From: Nitrospinota bacterium
GTDB lineage: Bacteria > Nitrospinota_A > UBA7883 > JACRGQ01
Assembly (NCBI GenBank): GCA_016217735.1
Contig: JACRGQ010000001.1
Location: 1-37,222 of the forward strand
Direction of reading: 5' to 3'
Length of the DNA: 37,222 bases
The notes under the pieces are model-generated. The model made no database searches, was not told where the DNA came from, and worked only from the letters and a program-made list of their open reading frames with translations. Within the stretch, counting starts at the first letter, position 1. Every line of letters starts with the position of its first letter. Shown piece by piece: positions 20,066 through 32,115 of this stretch. A program made the position numbers and the translations under genes.

Positions 20066-21679
20066 ATGAGGGTGAGGTCTCGTTTCTTTACAACGTTGCT
20101 TGCGCTAGGGGCATTGTTGACTCCCGCGCTGGCCGCCTACGCGGTGGAAGCGCCGGCAATGTCGCCGGAAGAGCTGACAAAAGGCAAACAGATATATTTT
20201 GAACGGTGCGCCGGGTGCCACGGCACGTTGCGCAAAGGGGCCACCGGGCCGAATCTTTTGCCGGATAAAATGCGCGAGATGGGATCCGAAGTCATTGGCG
20301 TATTCATTGGCGAAGGCACGGCGGGCGGTATGCCGGCGTGGGGTCCATCCGGAACGGCAATATTTACCGATGATGAAGTCAATTTGATGGCGCGCTACAT
20401 CCAGCAGGATGTTTCGGCGCCGCCAGAGATAAGCCTGGGTGATATGACCGAAACGTGGAAATTGACCGTACCCGTCAACAAGCGCCCGAAAAAACCGGCT
20501 CATACGCGCAACTGGCAGAACTTCTTCGGCGTCATTTTGCGCGATGCGGGCAAGGTCGCCATCATTGACGGCGATACCAAGGAAAAGCTCGCGGAACTTC
20601 CCACCGGTTTCGCGGTTCATATTCTCCGCTCTTCCGAATCGGGCCGGTATTTTTACGTCATCGGGCGCGACGGCAAGGCCACCCTTATCGACCTTTGGAG
20701 CAAAACGCCAACCATCGTCGCCGAGGTGAAACCCTGTGCCGAGGCGCGCAGCATCGACGGCAGCAAGTACAAAGGCTTTGAGGACAAGCTGGCCATCGTC
20801 GGCTGCTACTGGCCGCCCCAATTTGCGGTATTGGATGGTCAGACTCTTGAGCCGAAGAAGGTTGTCAGCACCCGCAGCATGACTTGGGACACGGGTGAAT
20901 ATCACCCCGAGCCCCGCGTGGCGGCCATCGTTGCCTCCCACTACAAGCCGGAATGGGTGTTGAATATCAAGGAGACCGGCTTCATCTGGCTGGTTGACTA
21001 TAGCGACCTGAAGAACCTCAACATCACGATGCTGGAAGGCGAACGCTTCCTGCACGACGGCGGCTGGGACGCCACCCACCGTTACTTCATGGCTGCCGCC
21101 AATATGAAGGATACCGAAGTGGTGGTCGATACCAAGATGCGCAAAGTAGTCGCCAAATTCAAAGTTGGCGTAAAACCGCACCCCGGCCGCGGCGCCAACT
21201 GGGATGATCCCAAATACGGTCCCGTCAGTTCCACCTGCCATCTGGGCGAAGGGAAGCTGAGCGTGTGGGGTTCGGATCCCGAAAAGCATGCGCAACACGC
21301 GTGGAAAGTCGTTCACACGATAGCTTTGCCGCCGGGCGCCGGGAGTCTTTTCGTGAAAACACACCCGAAGAGCGGGCATGTGTGGGTTGACTTCACGCTG
21401 AACTCCGACGCCAAGGCCACGCAGACCCTTTGCGTGCTGGACAAGGCCAATATCGAGGGAACGCCGAATTGTTTCCAGGTAACCGACCACGGCCGCGTGG
21501 TGCACCAGGAATACAACAAGGAGGGCAACGAGGTCTGGATCAGCGTATGGGATAAGGGTGATAAGGGCGAAATCGTCATTTACGACGACAAGACCCTGAA
21601 GGTGAAAACCAAGATCACCGGGCTTCAGACGCCGACTGGCAAGTTTAACGTGTACAACTCGAGAAACGACCTTTACTAA
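20066..21679 (+). CDS. nirS: Cytochrome cd1 nitrite reductase NirS
   Basis: This 537-residue periplasmic enzyme reduces nitrite to nitric oxide. A signal peptide (1-26, ending in ALAAYA) precedes a cytochrome c domain with CAGCH (48-52) and a likely Met ligand M89 in GGMPAW. The eight-bladed d1 propeller follows from about 150. The proximal d1 ligand H185 (TGFAVH) and both catalytic distal histidines, H330 (FLHDGGW) and H372 (KPHPGRGANW), are present with the same 42-residue spacing as Pseudomonas NirS. This separates it from NirN and NirF, which lack the full set. GAGGAGG precedes the ATG. Heme d1 genes follow immediately. Confidence 0.96.
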   Translation: MRVRSRFFTTLLALGALLTPALAAYAVEAPAMSPEELTKGKQIYFERCAGCHGTLRKGATGPNLLPDKMREMGSEVIGVFIGEGTAGGMPAWGPSGTAIFTDDEVNLMARYIQQDVSAPPEISLGDMTETWKLTVPVNKRPKKPAHTRNWQNFFGVILRDAGKVAIIDGDTKEKLAELPTGFAVHILRSSESGRYFYVIGRDGKATLIDLWSKTPTIVAEVKPCAEARSIDGSKYKGFEDKLAIVGCYWPPQFAVLDGQTLEPKKVVSTRSMTWDTGEYHPEPRVAAIVASHYKPEWVLNIKETGFIWLVDYSDLKNLNITMLEGERFLHDGGWDATHRYFMAAANMKDTEVVVDTKMRKVVAKFKVGVKPHPGRGANWDDPKYGPVSSTCHLGEGKLSVWGSDPEKHAQHAWKVVHTIALPPGAGSLFVKTHPKSGHVWVDFTLNSDAKATQTLCVLDKANIEGTPNCFQVTDHGRVVHQEYNKEGNEVWISVWDKGDKGEIVIYDDKTLKVKTKITGLQTPTGKFNVYNSRNDLY

Positions 21680-21813: not shown

Positions 21814-23469
21814 ATGCTGGTTGTTGCTCTGCTTGCGGCCGCGCTGGTGACCGCCTCCGCTTCCGGCGGAGAGGACATCTACCGGCGGCATTGCGCCACC
21901 TGCCATCACCCGCAACGTTTGGGGCATACCGCTCCGCCCCTTATTCCCGATATCCTGGGTAAAACCGACGCCGCGGCGTTGGCCGGAACCATCCGCAATG
22001 GTCTTCCCGCCACCGCCATGCCGTCGTTTAAAAACAGGCTGCGCGATGAAGAGATCAAGGCGGTCGCCGACCATCTCCTTACCCCCGCTTCAACCACCGG
22101 ATGGAGTATGGAAGACATCGCCAACAGCCGTAAGACTTTCTCCCTTCCCCCCGTCACGAAGTTGAAAGCCGATCCTTCCAACATCATTTTGGTGGTCGAG
22201 CGGGGAACGGGGAAGATCGTCCTGCTGGACGGCGATACGCTGACAAAAGCGGGCGAGTTCCTCGCCGGGGCCGTGCATGGCGGCCCGAAGTTCACCGGAT
22301 CGTTCGATGCGGTTTTTTCCCTCGCGCGTGACGGCATCATGGTGCGGTACGATACGCGCCGCCTCGCCCGCGCCGCGTGGGCCAAAGTCGCCGTGAGCAG
22401 CCGTGGCGCCGCGGTCACGCCGGACGGGAATGTGGCGGCCGTGATGAACCTGCTGCCGCAGGAACTGCTTTTTCTGGACGGCACGCTGGCGCCGCTCAAA
22501 AAAATACCGCTTGCCCACCGGCCGGGCGGGCTTTACTGGCACGCCGGCAAAAAGGCCTTTATCTGCTCGTTCCGCGATGCGCCCGAGCTTTGGATCATAG
22601 ACCCCGTCACCTTCGCCGTGGAAACGGTCCCGCTCCCGGTTCCGTTCGAGGACTTCGCCCTGCTCCGGAATCTTGTGTTCGGCTCGAAGCGGGGCGTGCC
22701 GGGCATCCATGTGTTTGATCTGGACCGGCGCGAAACCGTCGCCACGCTTCCCGCCGATGGGATGCCGCACCTTGCGTCCGCCGCGTTTTATAAGGAGGGC
22801 GGCGGCCTTTTTGTGGCGGTTAACTTCATCGACAAACCGCTGGTATCGGTCTATCGCCTCGATACGTACGCAAAGGCGGGGGATGTTCCCCTCCCTTCGC
22901 CCGGCTACTTCATCCGCACGCATCGCAATACCCCGTATCTCTGGATCGACACGGCGGGGGATACCCTGGTGCTGGCGGAAAAGCGCAACCTCGGCAACAC
23001 GCGGACGCTGACGCCGAGCCCCGGCAAGCGCGCCATGCACGTTGAGTTCACCAAGGAGGGCCGCGCCGCGCTGGTGAGCGTGACGGAGACCGACGGGGAG
23101 GTGGCCGCGTACGACGCCGTATCGCTGCAAAAAACCGGCCGCCTGCCGTTTAACAAACCGATGGGGAAGTATAACGCGATGCTGAAAACGTACCCCGACG
23201 CGGCGCTGGAAGACGCGCAACCGCAGGGGAAAAATATTTTTCAAAAATATTGCATGGGGTGCCACCATGAGACCATCGTGGCGTTCGGCCCGCCATTCGC
23301 CGAAATCGCCGCGCGGAGAAGCGAAGAGGAAATCCGCCTGCATATCGCCACGCCGAAAGAAAGCGCGGCGGCGCACAACTACAAAATCAATTCGATGCCG
23401 GTCATCCCGCTTACCGCGCGCGAGATGGACGATATCGTGGCCTACATCGTCAGCTTCAAGGAGAAATGA
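21814..23469 (+). CDS. nirN: NirN-like protein with cyt c - d1 propeller - cyt c architecture
   Basis: The frame cannot extend further upstream because a TAG lies at 21769. The 551-residue product has a signal peptide (1-18), a cytochrome c domain with CATCH (27-31) and M69, a d1-type propeller (about 120-450) and a second cytochrome c domain with CMGCH (480-484) and M528. H155 matches the proximal d1 ligand of NirS and H319 matches one distal His. The other distal His position reads FEDFALL and has lost it, as expected for NirN, the dihydro-heme d1 dehydrogenase, rather than a reductase. The extra C-terminal heme domain may replace a separate NirC-type electron acceptor. Confidence 0.82.
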   Translation: MLVVALLAAALVTASASGGEDIYRRHCATCHHPQRLGHTAPPLIPDILGKTDAAALAGTIRNGLPATAMPSFKNRLRDEEIKAVADHLLTPASTTGWSMEDIANSRKTFSLPPVTKLKADPSNIILVVERGTGKIVLLDGDTLTKAGEFLAGAVHGGPKFTGSFDAVFSLARDGIMVRYDTRRLARAAWAKVAVSSRGAAVTPDGNVAAVMNLLPQELLFLDGTLAPLKKIPLAHRPGGLYWHAGKKAFICSFRDAPELWIIDPVTFAVETVPLPVPFEDFALLRNLVFGSKRGVPGIHVFDLDRRETVATLPADGMPHLASAAFYKEGGGLFVAVNFIDKPLVSVYRLDTYAKAGDVPLPSPGYFIRTHRNTPYLWIDTAGDTLVLAEKRNLGNTRTLTPSPGKRAMHVEFTKEGRAALVSVTETDGEVAAYDAVSLQKTGRLPFNKPMGKYNAMLKTYPDAALEDAQPQGKNIFQKYCMGCHHETIVAFGPPFAEIAARRSEEEIRLHIATPKESAAAHNYKINSMPVIPLTAREMDDIVAYIVSFKEK

Positions 23470-23470
23470 G

Positions 23471-24652
23471 ATGTTTCGGCTGACCGGACTGCTAAAAGCC
23501 GCCTACGGGGCGGATACCGCCGATAGCGCGCCGCCGGGGAACGGGAAACACCGCGCCGCCCCGGCCGGCGGGCCGGTGGTGATCTGGAATCTCACCCGGC
23601 GGTGCAACCTGGTCTGCGCCCACTGCTACGCATGGGCGACCGACGCCACGTACCGCACGGAGCTTTCCGGGCCGGATGCCTTGCGGGTGGTGGACGATCT
23701 GAAAGAGGCCGGCTGCCGCCAGTTGATATTTTCCGGCGGCGAGCCGCTGTTGCGTTCCGATATCTTTGATCTGGCCGCGCGGGCGAAAAAGGCCGGGATG
23801 CTCATCTCGCTTTCCACCAACGGCACGGTGATCACCGATGCCATAGCCGGCCGCATCCGCGATACCGGATTCGATTATGTGGGGGTGAGCCTCGACGGCG
23901 TCGGGGCCACGCACGACCGGTTCAGGGGGAAGGAAGGGGCGTTTGAAGAGTCGCTGGCGGGGCTGTTGCGCTGCAAGCGGCGGGGGCTCAAAACGGGGCT
24001 GCGCTTCACCATCACCACGGAAAACCTCCCGGAACTGCCGTTCCTTTTCCGGCTGGCGGAGGAACAGGGATTCCATAAAATTTATATTTCCCACCTCGTT
24101 TCGTCGGGGCGGGGACGGCTGAACATGGCGCTGGATCCCGACCTGACGGCGATGCGGGGCGTGATGGATTACATTTTCGAAAAGGGGCGGGAGTACGTCG
24201 AAAACGGAAACCCCGTCGAAATCGTCACCGGCAACAACGAGGCCGATGCCGCCTATTTTCTGCTGAAAATACGGGAAAGCCGCCCCGAACGGTTCGCCAA
24301 GCTGTTGTCGCGGCTGCGCCGGTGGGGGGGGAACAGTTCCGGCATCGGCATAGCCAATATCGATGCGCGCGGGAACGTCCACCCCGATCCGCTTCTGTCA
24401 TCCATCACGCTGGGCAATGTGCTGGAAAAGCCGTTCGGCGAAATATGGCGCGAAAGCGGCGATCCGGCGCTGGAACGGCTGCGCGAACGGCCCCGCCAAA
24501 TCGGGGGGCGTTGTGGAAGCTGCGTGTGGCTTGACGTCTGCAACGGCGGATCGCGCGCCCGCGCCGCCGGAGCGGGTAACATCTGGGGGGCCGATCCCGG
24601 CTGCTACCTGACCGAAGAGGAAATACATGCGGCTGAAATGGTTGCTTCTTAG
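23471..24652 (+). CDS. nirJ: NirJ, radical SAM heme d1 biosynthesis protein
   Basis: The start is the ATG one base after the nirN-like stop; an upstream extension in frame is inside that gene. The 393-residue protein has the radical SAM cluster motif C45-NLV-C49-AH-C52-Y, a GGEPLL motif and a C-terminal SPASM-like region with CGSCVWLDVCNGG and a final Cys in GADPGC. NirJ removes the two propionates of 12,18-didecarboxysiroheme and installs the oxo groups of heme d1 in the cytoplasm. Related AhbC/AhbD enzymes make heme from siroheme, but the surrounding nirS, nirN-like and nirF genes point to NirJ. Confidence 0.92.
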   Translation: MFRLTGLLKAAYGADTADSAPPGNGKHRAAPAGGPVVIWNLTRRCNLVCAHCYAWATDATYRTELSGPDALRVVDDLKEAGCRQLIFSGGEPLLRSDIFDLAARAKKAGMLISLSTNGTVITDAIAGRIRDTGFDYVGVSLDGVGATHDRFRGKEGAFEESLAGLLRCKRRGLKTGLRFTITTENLPELPFLFRLAEEQGFHKIYISHLVSSGRGRLNMALDPDLTAMRGVMDYIFEKGREYVENGNPVEIVTGNNEADAAYFLLKIRESRPERFAKLLSRLRRWGGNSSGIGIANIDARGNVHPDPLLSSITLGNVLEKPFGEIWRESGDPALERLRERPRQIGGRCGSCVWLDVCNGGSRARAAGAGNIWGADPGCYLTEEEIHAAEMVAS

Positions 24653-25790
24653 CCTGCTGCTTTTCACCGCATCGGCGGCGGATGCCGCCCAATGGGGCAC
24701 CGGCGCGCTCATGGTGGTGGTGGAGCGCGAAAAAGGGGCGGTGATGGTGCTGGACGCCGCCCAGAACCATAAGGTGCTGGGTGAAGTCGGCGGGCTGGGG
24801 GTATTGCATCATGCCTCAGCCGTCTTCTCGCGCGATGGCCGGTATGCGTACATGGTCAGCCGCGACGGCCTGCTGAGCAAAATAGATTTGCTGGGGCCGT
24901 CGCTGGCCGCGCAGGTGAAGGTGGGGGAAAGCTCGATAGGCCTCGCCGTCACCACCGACGGCAAGAATGTGGCGGTGAGCAACTACAAGCCGGGCAATAT
25001 CGTCATCGTCGACGACGCCAGCTTCAAAGTGGTGAAAAGCATAGAAGCGGACGCCTCGCGCACCGTCGGCCTCGTCGATGCCCCCGGAAACCTGCTGATT
25101 GTCGCGTTGATGGATGCCAACGAGATATGGATCATCGATGCGGGAAACCCCGATTTCCCCGTGGTGAAAAAGTACAGCGATGTCGGGGTGAAGCCGTACG
25201 ACGGCATGATCACATCGAACGGACGCTACTACATGGCCGGTTACTTCCATTCCGAATGGGTGTCGATCATCGATCTTTGGGATAGGGATAACGTTGTGAA
25301 GCTGCCGCTTCCCAAGCCTTCCTTCCGCATGGAGGAGGCCCCGCCGATATTGAAGCTTCCGCACCTGCGCGGCTGGACGATGAGCGACGGAAAACTGTTC
25401 ACCCCCATCGTGGGCGTTTCCGGCCTGGCGGTGATCGGCACGCGGGACTGGAAAGTCGAGAAAACGGTCGACCTCGCCGCCTATCCGGTTTTCACCGTGC
25501 TGCGCCCCGATGGCCGCCAGATGTGGGTGAACTACGCCATGGGGGAAAAGCACGACACGATGCAGGTGATCGACCTGAAGACGATGGGCGTGGTGAAAAC
25601 GCTGAAACCCGGCGCGAAGGTGTTTCACATGCAGTTCACCCCCAAAGGGAACGAGATATACGCCTCGGTGAACGGCGATGACAAAGTGGTGATATACAAC
25701 ACCGAAACCTTCGAGGTGGTGAAGACGATCCCCGTGCCGCAACCCTCCGGCATTTTCTGCAGCAACCGTTCCAGCCTCTTCGGCATGTAA
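24627..25790 (+). CDS. nirF: NirF, heme d1 biosynthesis protein
   Basis: This 387-residue protein has a signal peptide (1-20, ending ADA) and a d1-like beta-propeller without a cytochrome c domain, the NirF layout. The paired H61-H62 in LGVLHHASAVFSRDGRYAYMVSRDG matches the conserved NirF histidine needed for d1 maturation. It acts in the periplasm on a late d1 precursor, before NirN oxidation and insertion into NirS. Its start overlaps nirJ by 26 bp, so both are translated together. The end carries no lipoprotein box; tethering, if any, is by the uncleaved signal. Confidence 0.93.
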   Translation: MRLKWLLLSLLLFTASAADAAQWGTGALMVVVEREKGAVMVLDAAQNHKVLGEVGGLGVLHHASAVFSRDGRYAYMVSRDGLLSKIDLLGPSLAAQVKVGESSIGLAVTTDGKNVAVSNYKPGNIVIVDDASFKVVKSIEADASRTVGLVDAPGNLLIVALMDANEIWIIDAGNPDFPVVKKYSDVGVKPYDGMITSNGRYYMAGYFHSEWVSIIDLWDRDNVVKLPLPKPSFRMEEAPPILKLPHLRGWTMSDGKLFTPIVGVSGLAVIGTRDWKVEKTVDLAAYPVFTVLRPDGRQMWVNYAMGEKHDTMQVIDLKTMGVVKTLKPGAKVFHMQFTPKGNEIYASVNGDDKVVIYNTETFEVVKTIPVPQPSGIFCSNRSSLFGM

Positions 25791-31051: not shown

Positions 31052-31072
31052 GAAAATCAATCATCGATTTTC
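31052..31072. terminator. Hairpin at convergent stop codons (phosphoesterase / Mrr-like)
   Basis: GAAAATC (31052-31058) / GATTTTC (31066-31072) with a 7-base loop contains the stop codon of the minus-strand nuclease gene and lies 8 bp past the phosphoesterase stop. T-rich arms on either strand could support bidirectional termination. Confidence 0.5.
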
Positions 31073-31971
31073 CGAAAGGATAATTGACCTTTCAAAATTT
31101 CACCATCTCTTATAATTGGCCGCATCAATGCCCGAACATGGGTTTTAGCCTGATGCGGTAAGTGTTCCCCATCTTTTAATAAAAGCATCTCTTCTTTTTT
31201 CATTGAGGCTAGGTCAGCCTCTGACAATAAAACTTGAGTAACGCCGGTCAACTCATTTTTTATTGCTTTGGTGTTGGGCAAATTGTCAACATAACCAAAA
31301 TAATACGTCCTCTTCAAGACAACATTTATTTTTAAATCTTTTATTTCGCGCTTAATATCATTCTGCAAAACAACAAAAGGATCCTCATAATTCGGATTAT
31401 AAGATTGCTCTTCTTGATCAAATTGAATTGCGCCTTGGTTCCAATCTCGTGCAAATCTATCCCGTAAATCCTCACCTGAAACAATTAAAGCTTTCCCCTG
31501 CGGAACGGGTATGTCCTTTTCAAGGTAGACGGTGTAGCTCACATTTAAAGATGGAAGAATCTCTTCCAGTATCAAAGGAACCTGAAGTAGAAGCTTCCAA
31601 TTTTTTGAATGTGCATCATGAATCATGCAGGGGTCTATTCCCCGATATTTGGCATAGTTTTTTGCGCTTTTTGAAAATCCAGAATTTGAGATCATCACCC
31701 CTCGGTGAGCCCCTACGTCCTGCATCATCGCGTAAAATGCACCAACTTGGTTAATATCCACCTTTGATTTTTGATTTTTACATTCGACAGCTATGAATAT
31801 TTCATGTCCCGAAACATTGCCGATAATTGAGACATCAATCTGTCGACTCGTTTTGCTTAGTCTTCCTATTAGGCGATGGTTATGGGTTACTTTACATTGT
31901 GGCGACAAGAGTTCATAAATTCTTGCCGTAATCATCTCATATTCTTGGGCATCAACTTTGTATTGTTTCAT
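31057..31971 (-). CDS. Mrr-like PD-(D/E)xK restriction endonuclease
   Basis: From the ATG at 31971 the protein is 304 residues; a TTG start at 31989 is possible. The nuclease core is near the N-terminus: RQID with D46, then VECKN with E63-C-K65, followed by DINQVGAFYAMMQDVGAHRGVMISNSGF, the helix and strand typical of Mrr-type enzymes. The C-terminal 200 residues have no recognised DNA-binding domain. The gene is notably AT-rich and stands alone, without a methyltransferase or specificity subunit, so a modification-dependent (type IV) or other defence role is plausible but unproven. It is flanked by repeat elements on its 5' side. Confidence 0.8.
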   Translation of the reverse strand: MKQYKVDAQEYEMITARIYELLSPQCKVTHNHRLIGRLSKTSRQIDVSIIGNVSGHEIFIAVECKNQKSKVDINQVGAFYAMMQDVGAHRGVMISNSGFSKSAKNYAKYRGIDPCMIHDAHSKNWKLLLQVPLILEEILPSLNVSYTVYLEKDIPVPQGKALIVSGEDLRDRFARDWNQGAIQFDQEEQSYNPNYEDPFVVLQNDIKREIKDLKINVVLKRTYYFGYVDNLPNTKAIKNELTGVTQVLLSEADLASMKKEEMLLLKDGEHLPHQAKTHVRALMRPIIRDGEILKGQLSFRKIDD

Positions 31972-32115
31972 CAACCAAACCCATCGCAAATAAATATTTT
32001 CGCAAAATCATGTATCGATCATAGCTTGTCTAGCAGTAATAATCACCCCGCAATTACGTAGGCGATGTGGCGGGAACGAGGGGGTTGGCGCAATAGCGGC
32101 AGACCTCTCTTTGTC

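Follow-up and report, generated by a model that had tools for sequence, protein, structure and literature searches.

NirS, the cytochrome cd1 nitrite reductase, usually receives its electrons from NirM, a cytochrome c551, and both NirM and the small cytochrome NirC are lost or swapped between denitrifiers. The related protein NirN in its canonical form works with a single c heme and must pass its electrons to a free carrier. In the heme d1 pathway as described in PMC13168839, NirC is the partner of NirF in making dihydro-heme d1 and may accept electrons in that step, and NirN converts dihydro-heme d1 to heme d1 by removing two electrons. NirN, NirF and NirS are reported to interact in Pseudomonas aeruginosa (PMC3694632). 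An extra cytochrome at the N-terminus of NirS has been described in Chloroflexi (PMC8756737), and NirS has been reported in some metagenome-assembled genomes of the Nitrospinota class UBA7883 (PMC10839748). In the open-access literature searched, where absence is no proof, we found no description of a NirN with a C-terminal cytochrome, and thus no sign of the many such proteins that a sequence-only reading of this locus had named as grounds for refuting its proposal.

Here, we analyze a 37,222-nucleotide stretch of DNA (the window) from a member of class UBA7883, in which a nirN-like gene encodes a protein with a cytochrome c domain at each end of its d1 propeller, an architecture we term c-d1-c. 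The gene lies in a cluster with the order nirS-nirN-nirJ-nirF, and the features that concern us are these:

20066..21679, + strand: nirS, cytochrome cd1 nitrite reductase, 537 aa (Pfam D1, 3.4e-123; 55% identity to Thermus NirS)
21814..23469, + strand: nirN-like gene, cytochrome c - d1 propeller - cytochrome c (ORF, Pfam, PDB match 6rtd)
21859..22077, + strand: N-terminal cytochrome c domain, residues 16-88, with CATCH at 27-31 (PF13442; NirC-profile match, 1.0e-11)
22171..23181, + strand: d1 beta-propeller, residues ~120-456 (PF02239; alignment to canonical NirN and NirS)
23221..23457, + strand: extra C-terminal cytochrome c domain, residues ~470-548 (PF00034), of c551/NirM type in profile comparisons, and under purifying selection
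23251..23265, + strand: CMGCH heme-binding motif, residues 480-484 (read from the sequence; invariant in 12 class members)
23395..23397, + strand: Met528, probable axial heme ligand of the C-terminal domain (S527-M528 invariant in the class)
23471..24652, + strand: nirJ, radical SAM heme d1 biosynthesis protein (TIGR04051, 459 bits)
24627..25790, + strand: nirF, d1-type propeller protein (Pfam D1, 1.3e-75; 42% identity to Pseudomonas NirF)

The nirJ score lies under the 515-bit cut-off of TIGR04051, yet this is its best family. Because nirJ starts 1 bp past the nirN stop codon and nirF overlaps nirJ, the products of nirN, nirJ and nirF are probably translated together. Neither nirC nor nirM is present in the cluster, in agreement with the earlier observation that no NirC or other free cytochrome is encoded there. 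The neighbors of the cluster are a cation efflux gene and groEL/groES (named from their sequences) on the other strand; downstream of it, at 31057-31989, the window encodes a protein with an Mrr-type restriction endonuclease domain. In the same genome, siroheme decarboxylase (NirDLGH-like) genes are not linked to the nir cluster and sit on a different contig (G000:C40; L097 3545-4530).

The nirN-like gene is a single open reading frame of 551 codons for amino acids, without an internal stop. Pfam identifies a Cytochrom_D1 domain (2.8e-41) and one cytochrome c stretch at each end of the protein, matched best by PF13442 at residues 16-88 and by PF00034 at 472-547, so the second cytochrome c domain proposed from the sequence, with its CMGCH motif, is real. 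Met528, put forward in the same proposal as a possible heme ligand, is invariant along with Ser527 in the nine full-length homologues of the class. The closest solved structure is P. aeruginosa NirN (6rtd, E 1.9e-77), which aligns to residues 16-456 and thus shares the order of cytochrome c domain and d1 propeller, but has no counterpart to the remaining C-terminal segment: canonical NirN stops shortly after the propeller, while this protein continues for about 95 residues with a second heme motif (hereafter the tail). An AlphaFold model of the c-d1-c protein, built from two input sequences, had a mean pLDDT of 37 and was set aside.

Alignment and tree construction with 15 canonical NirN and six NirS sequences place the protein on the NirN side, separated from NirS by a 100/100 branch. 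Its propeller carries H155, R172, H319, R368, H370, H409, E411 and Y453. Tyr453 and Arg368 are shared with canonical NirN, and the Phe and Lys that occupy these positions in all six NirS proteins are not present. H409 and Y453 correspond to P. aeruginosa His417 and Tyr461, which we take to be essential or catalytic and treat as a lead only. By sequence and by its diagnostic residues, then, we assign the protein to NirN. It had been argued earlier that the loss of one of the two distal histidines of NirS, with retention of the other, fits the role of a dihydro-heme d1 dehydrogenase. The pattern itself is correct, with H319 as the first histidine and Phe338 in place of the second, but as a sign of NirN the loss is weak evidence. 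Within the class we saw Phe338 in this genus alone, the other eight full-length members having His, and the second histidine is found in several canonical NirN proteins while missing from others and from Thermus NirS. We therefore dropped it as a marker; Tyr453 and Arg368 serve better.

The c-d1-c architecture is not limited to this organism. NirN is encoded in 12 of 23 genomes of the class, and all 12 carry the tail; nine of these genes are intact, one is cut at a contig start, and two are split between contig ends. A contig scan with the window protein as single query returned only the congener, while a wider sample of 385 genomes, followed up in detail, revealed the architecture in three other phylum-level groups: f134 (two genomes), f18 (11 of the 30 genomes of its phylum) and f76 (two genomes), which brings the total to 27 genomes in four such groups. 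In the class and in the other lineages alike, nirJ follows nirN, with nirF next in line on every contig that reaches that far. Canonical NirN without a tail occurs in each of the eight genomes of another phylum that encode NirN, in G072, and on plasmids, where matches to the window protein end at query residue 454-463. Comparison with the congener gives dN 0.056 and dS 0.593 for the tail (dN/dS ~0.09), similar to the propeller (dN 0.056, dS 0.508), and the tail thus evolves under purifying selection. We found no support for the idea that sequencing or assembly error joined two genes; 27 genomes that were assembled separately share the architecture, which, along with the selection acting on the tail, excludes it.

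Profile comparisons do not support a NirC type for the extra domain. A profile of 12 tails matches c555, c552, c551, NorC and the cytochrome part of 2zoo (E 0.0011), a NirK-cytochrome fusion recorded as a probable nitrite reductase, in the PDB, with NirC absent among the matches. Compared by hhalign, the tail scores 98.2% against a NirM profile (E 3.1e-14) versus 2.1% against NirC (E 0.022); NirC sequences reach at most 2.2 bits against the tail, and the GGLG motif of NirC is not found in the C-terminal domain. Conversely, a NirC profile finds NirC itself (6tp9) at the top of its PDB matches, with NirN among the next and NirS lower, and in this genome its clear matches are limited to the N-terminal domain of NirN and the c domain of NirS. 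In a small domain tree with weak support, tails group with NirM, opposite NirC, NirS-c and NirN N-terminal domains. Tails of the class score 99.9% by hhalign against tails of the other lineages (E 3.2e-31). We conclude that the tails of all four lineages are one kind of c551/NirM-type domain and that the relative of NirC in the window protein is its N-terminal domain.

Cytochromes resembling the tail also occur near nirF in two clusters without the fusion: a free cytochrome in G179 (33.4 bits), whose NirN is cut by a contig end, and the second domain of a diheme cytochrome in G510 (25.8 bits). The second domain of a comparable diheme cytochrome near nirF in G773 reaches only 11.5 bits. Since six loci with canonical NirN and nirF in view (G432, G193, G561, G587, G677 and G773) have neither a fusion nor a clear c551-type cytochrome by nirF, the tail domain is not obligatory. 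Small diheme cytochromes by nirF in clusters with canonical NirN (L119 6077-6709; L121 6219-6980) fall, with weak support in the domain tree, on the NirC/NirS-c side with their first domain and on the NirM side with their second.

Because NirC acts with NirF to make dihydro-heme d1, a missing NirC matters to the pathway, and we searched 37 genomes and four plasmid controls with combined NirC and NirS profiles. All four controls returned NirC, at 98-113 bits, and so did G072, at 59 bits; the canonical-NirN genome G493 gave a weak 149-aa candidate. None of the 27 c-d1-c genomes yielded a clear free NirC, and the NirC profile found no free NirC in the window's own genome, which is 95% complete. 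NirC was also missing from seven of ten genomes with canonical NirN (G179, G193, G432, G561, G587, G677 and G773), so a lack of NirC does not single out the fusion. Of the suggestion that the extra heme replaces NirC, the absence of NirC from cluster and genome is supported, but replacement itself is weakened, by these canonical genomes and by the partnership of NirC with NirF, and as a strict rule we reject it. NirS was found in every c-d1-c genome of the class, f134 and f76, but genome-wide in none of the 11 from f18, some of which are more than 95% complete. Several further features of the sampled nir loci came to light. G432 combines a canonical NirN with no NirS and an extra NirF-like propeller (L120 9734-10966). 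The NirS proteins of f134 (L087 4374-6743; L088 2323-4692) have two extra N-terminal cytochrome-like CxxCH domains, for three CxxCH motifs ahead of the d1 propeller. A family of 185-216 aa proteins (L032 5892-6449, L034 11657-12307, L035 13764-14393, L119 4375-4935 and L125 8258-8875), ~44-67% identical and with C-terminal GHPLNP-TC--CH and CGNR motifs, is encoded close to nir clusters both in the class and in another phylum; it has no match in the window, and Pfam recognized none of the four members searched out of these five.

We propose, with about an even chance of being right, that the protein is a dihydro-heme d1 dehydrogenase NirN with a covalently attached c551-type domain as electron exit. 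The propeller would bind dihydro-heme d1 and oxidize a propionate side chain to acrylate, and the two electrons would leave via the c hemes; the tail would dock with the carriers of the periplasmic pool and relay electrons to them. A single c heme could not hold both electrons of one turnover and two would suffice, which is why we read the tail as a built-in exit and docking domain. That the tail binds heme, that its electrons come from NirN's own reaction, and the order of the hemes are points we infer; the earlier idea that the tail could accept electrons from d1 oxidation is plausible. A different and unlikely role for the tail would be that of a stand-in for NirC at NirF, so that one NirN serves the keto-group step of NirF as well as its own dehydrogenation and channels intermediates between the propellers. 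The place of NirC beside NirF and its possible acceptance of electrons there (PMC13168839), the contacts among NirN, NirF and NirS in P. aeruginosa (PMC3694632), the tight packing of nirN with nirJ and nirF, and the lack of a clear free NirC in all 27 genomes would fit such a role. Yet the tail does not resemble NirC, tail-less NirN proteins lack a NirC companion so often that its absence does not track the fusion, and weakly NirC-like free cytochromes lie upstream of c-d1-c genes in f18.

The type of the tail, nearest to NirM/c551, and the lack of nirM in the cluster might instead point to a donor for NirS whose attachment to NirN would reflect the delivery of heme d1 from NirN to NirS, two proteins in contact in P. 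aeruginosa (PMC3694632). We consider this distinctly improbable: a respiratory donor with a high flux would be badly placed on a maturation factor, and a role that the 11 f18 genomes (L127-L136, L089) could not use, since they keep the tail in a c-d1-c nirN-nirJ-nirF cluster with no detectable NirS, is not a general one. These genomes, along with the match of the tail profile to 2zoo, could in turn suggest that the protein is no maturation factor and, like NirK-cytochrome c fusions, reduces nitrite with a donor domain of its own, as a second nitrite reductase. For the window protein this is very unlikely, given the separate NirS in the window, the 100/100 branch grouping it with NirN, and its NirN-type Tyr and Arg. 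The f18 propellers themselves differ, with the positions equivalent to R172, R368, H370 and E411 changed and Y453 kept, and most f18 loci have free cytochromes ahead of the c-d1-c gene. Together with the lack of NirS, these features argue against reading the tail simply as a donor to NirS or as the replacement of a free cytochrome that was lost. There is a slim chance that in f18-like lineages the c-d1-c protein itself makes final use of a heme d1-type cofactor and works as a self-sufficient redox enzyme, its electron-transfer domain built in, with the maturation role having evolved from or toward this one. Given a c-d1-c protein in genomes where NirS is not detected, one may ask whether cofactors of the heme d1 type are used by enzymes beyond cytochrome cd1 nitrite reductase.

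In a tree of NirN cores, the c-d1-c proteins of the class pair with the canonical NirN of G561 (100/96), and those of f134, f18 and f76 form a separate clade (99/100). Constraining all c-d1-c proteins to one clade gives an AU p value of 0.027, and we reject a single clade, although long branches limit the tree and, with the shared tail type, temper the rejection. Two core groups with one type of tail could reflect one old fusion followed by losses, or spread of the tail by recombination or domain transfer.

The c-d1-c NirN is a variation on a known enzyme, with the core features of NirN in place, and does not represent a separate type of system. With its own second cytochrome, it offers a one-protein system for testing an electron path by heme removal. 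Like P. aeruginosa NirN (6rtd/6rte), it combines an N-terminal cytochrome c domain and a d1 propeller over residues 16-456, conserves H155, H319, H409, R368 and Y453, and is encoded in a maturation cluster with nirJ and nirF; unlike that protein, it continues past the propeller into a linker and a second cytochrome c domain. That domain is of the class I cytochrome c551-c552 (NirM) type, but NirM is a free protein and here the domain is fused to NirN. NirC (6tp9), a small cytochrome of the heme d1 pathway with no copy found in this genome, is related to the N-terminal domain and does not match the C-terminal one. The Chloroflexi C1-C2-NirS fusion (PMC8756737) is a parallel case of a d1 propeller protein that gained an extra cytochrome domain, there at the N-terminus of NirS and here at the C-terminus of NirN.
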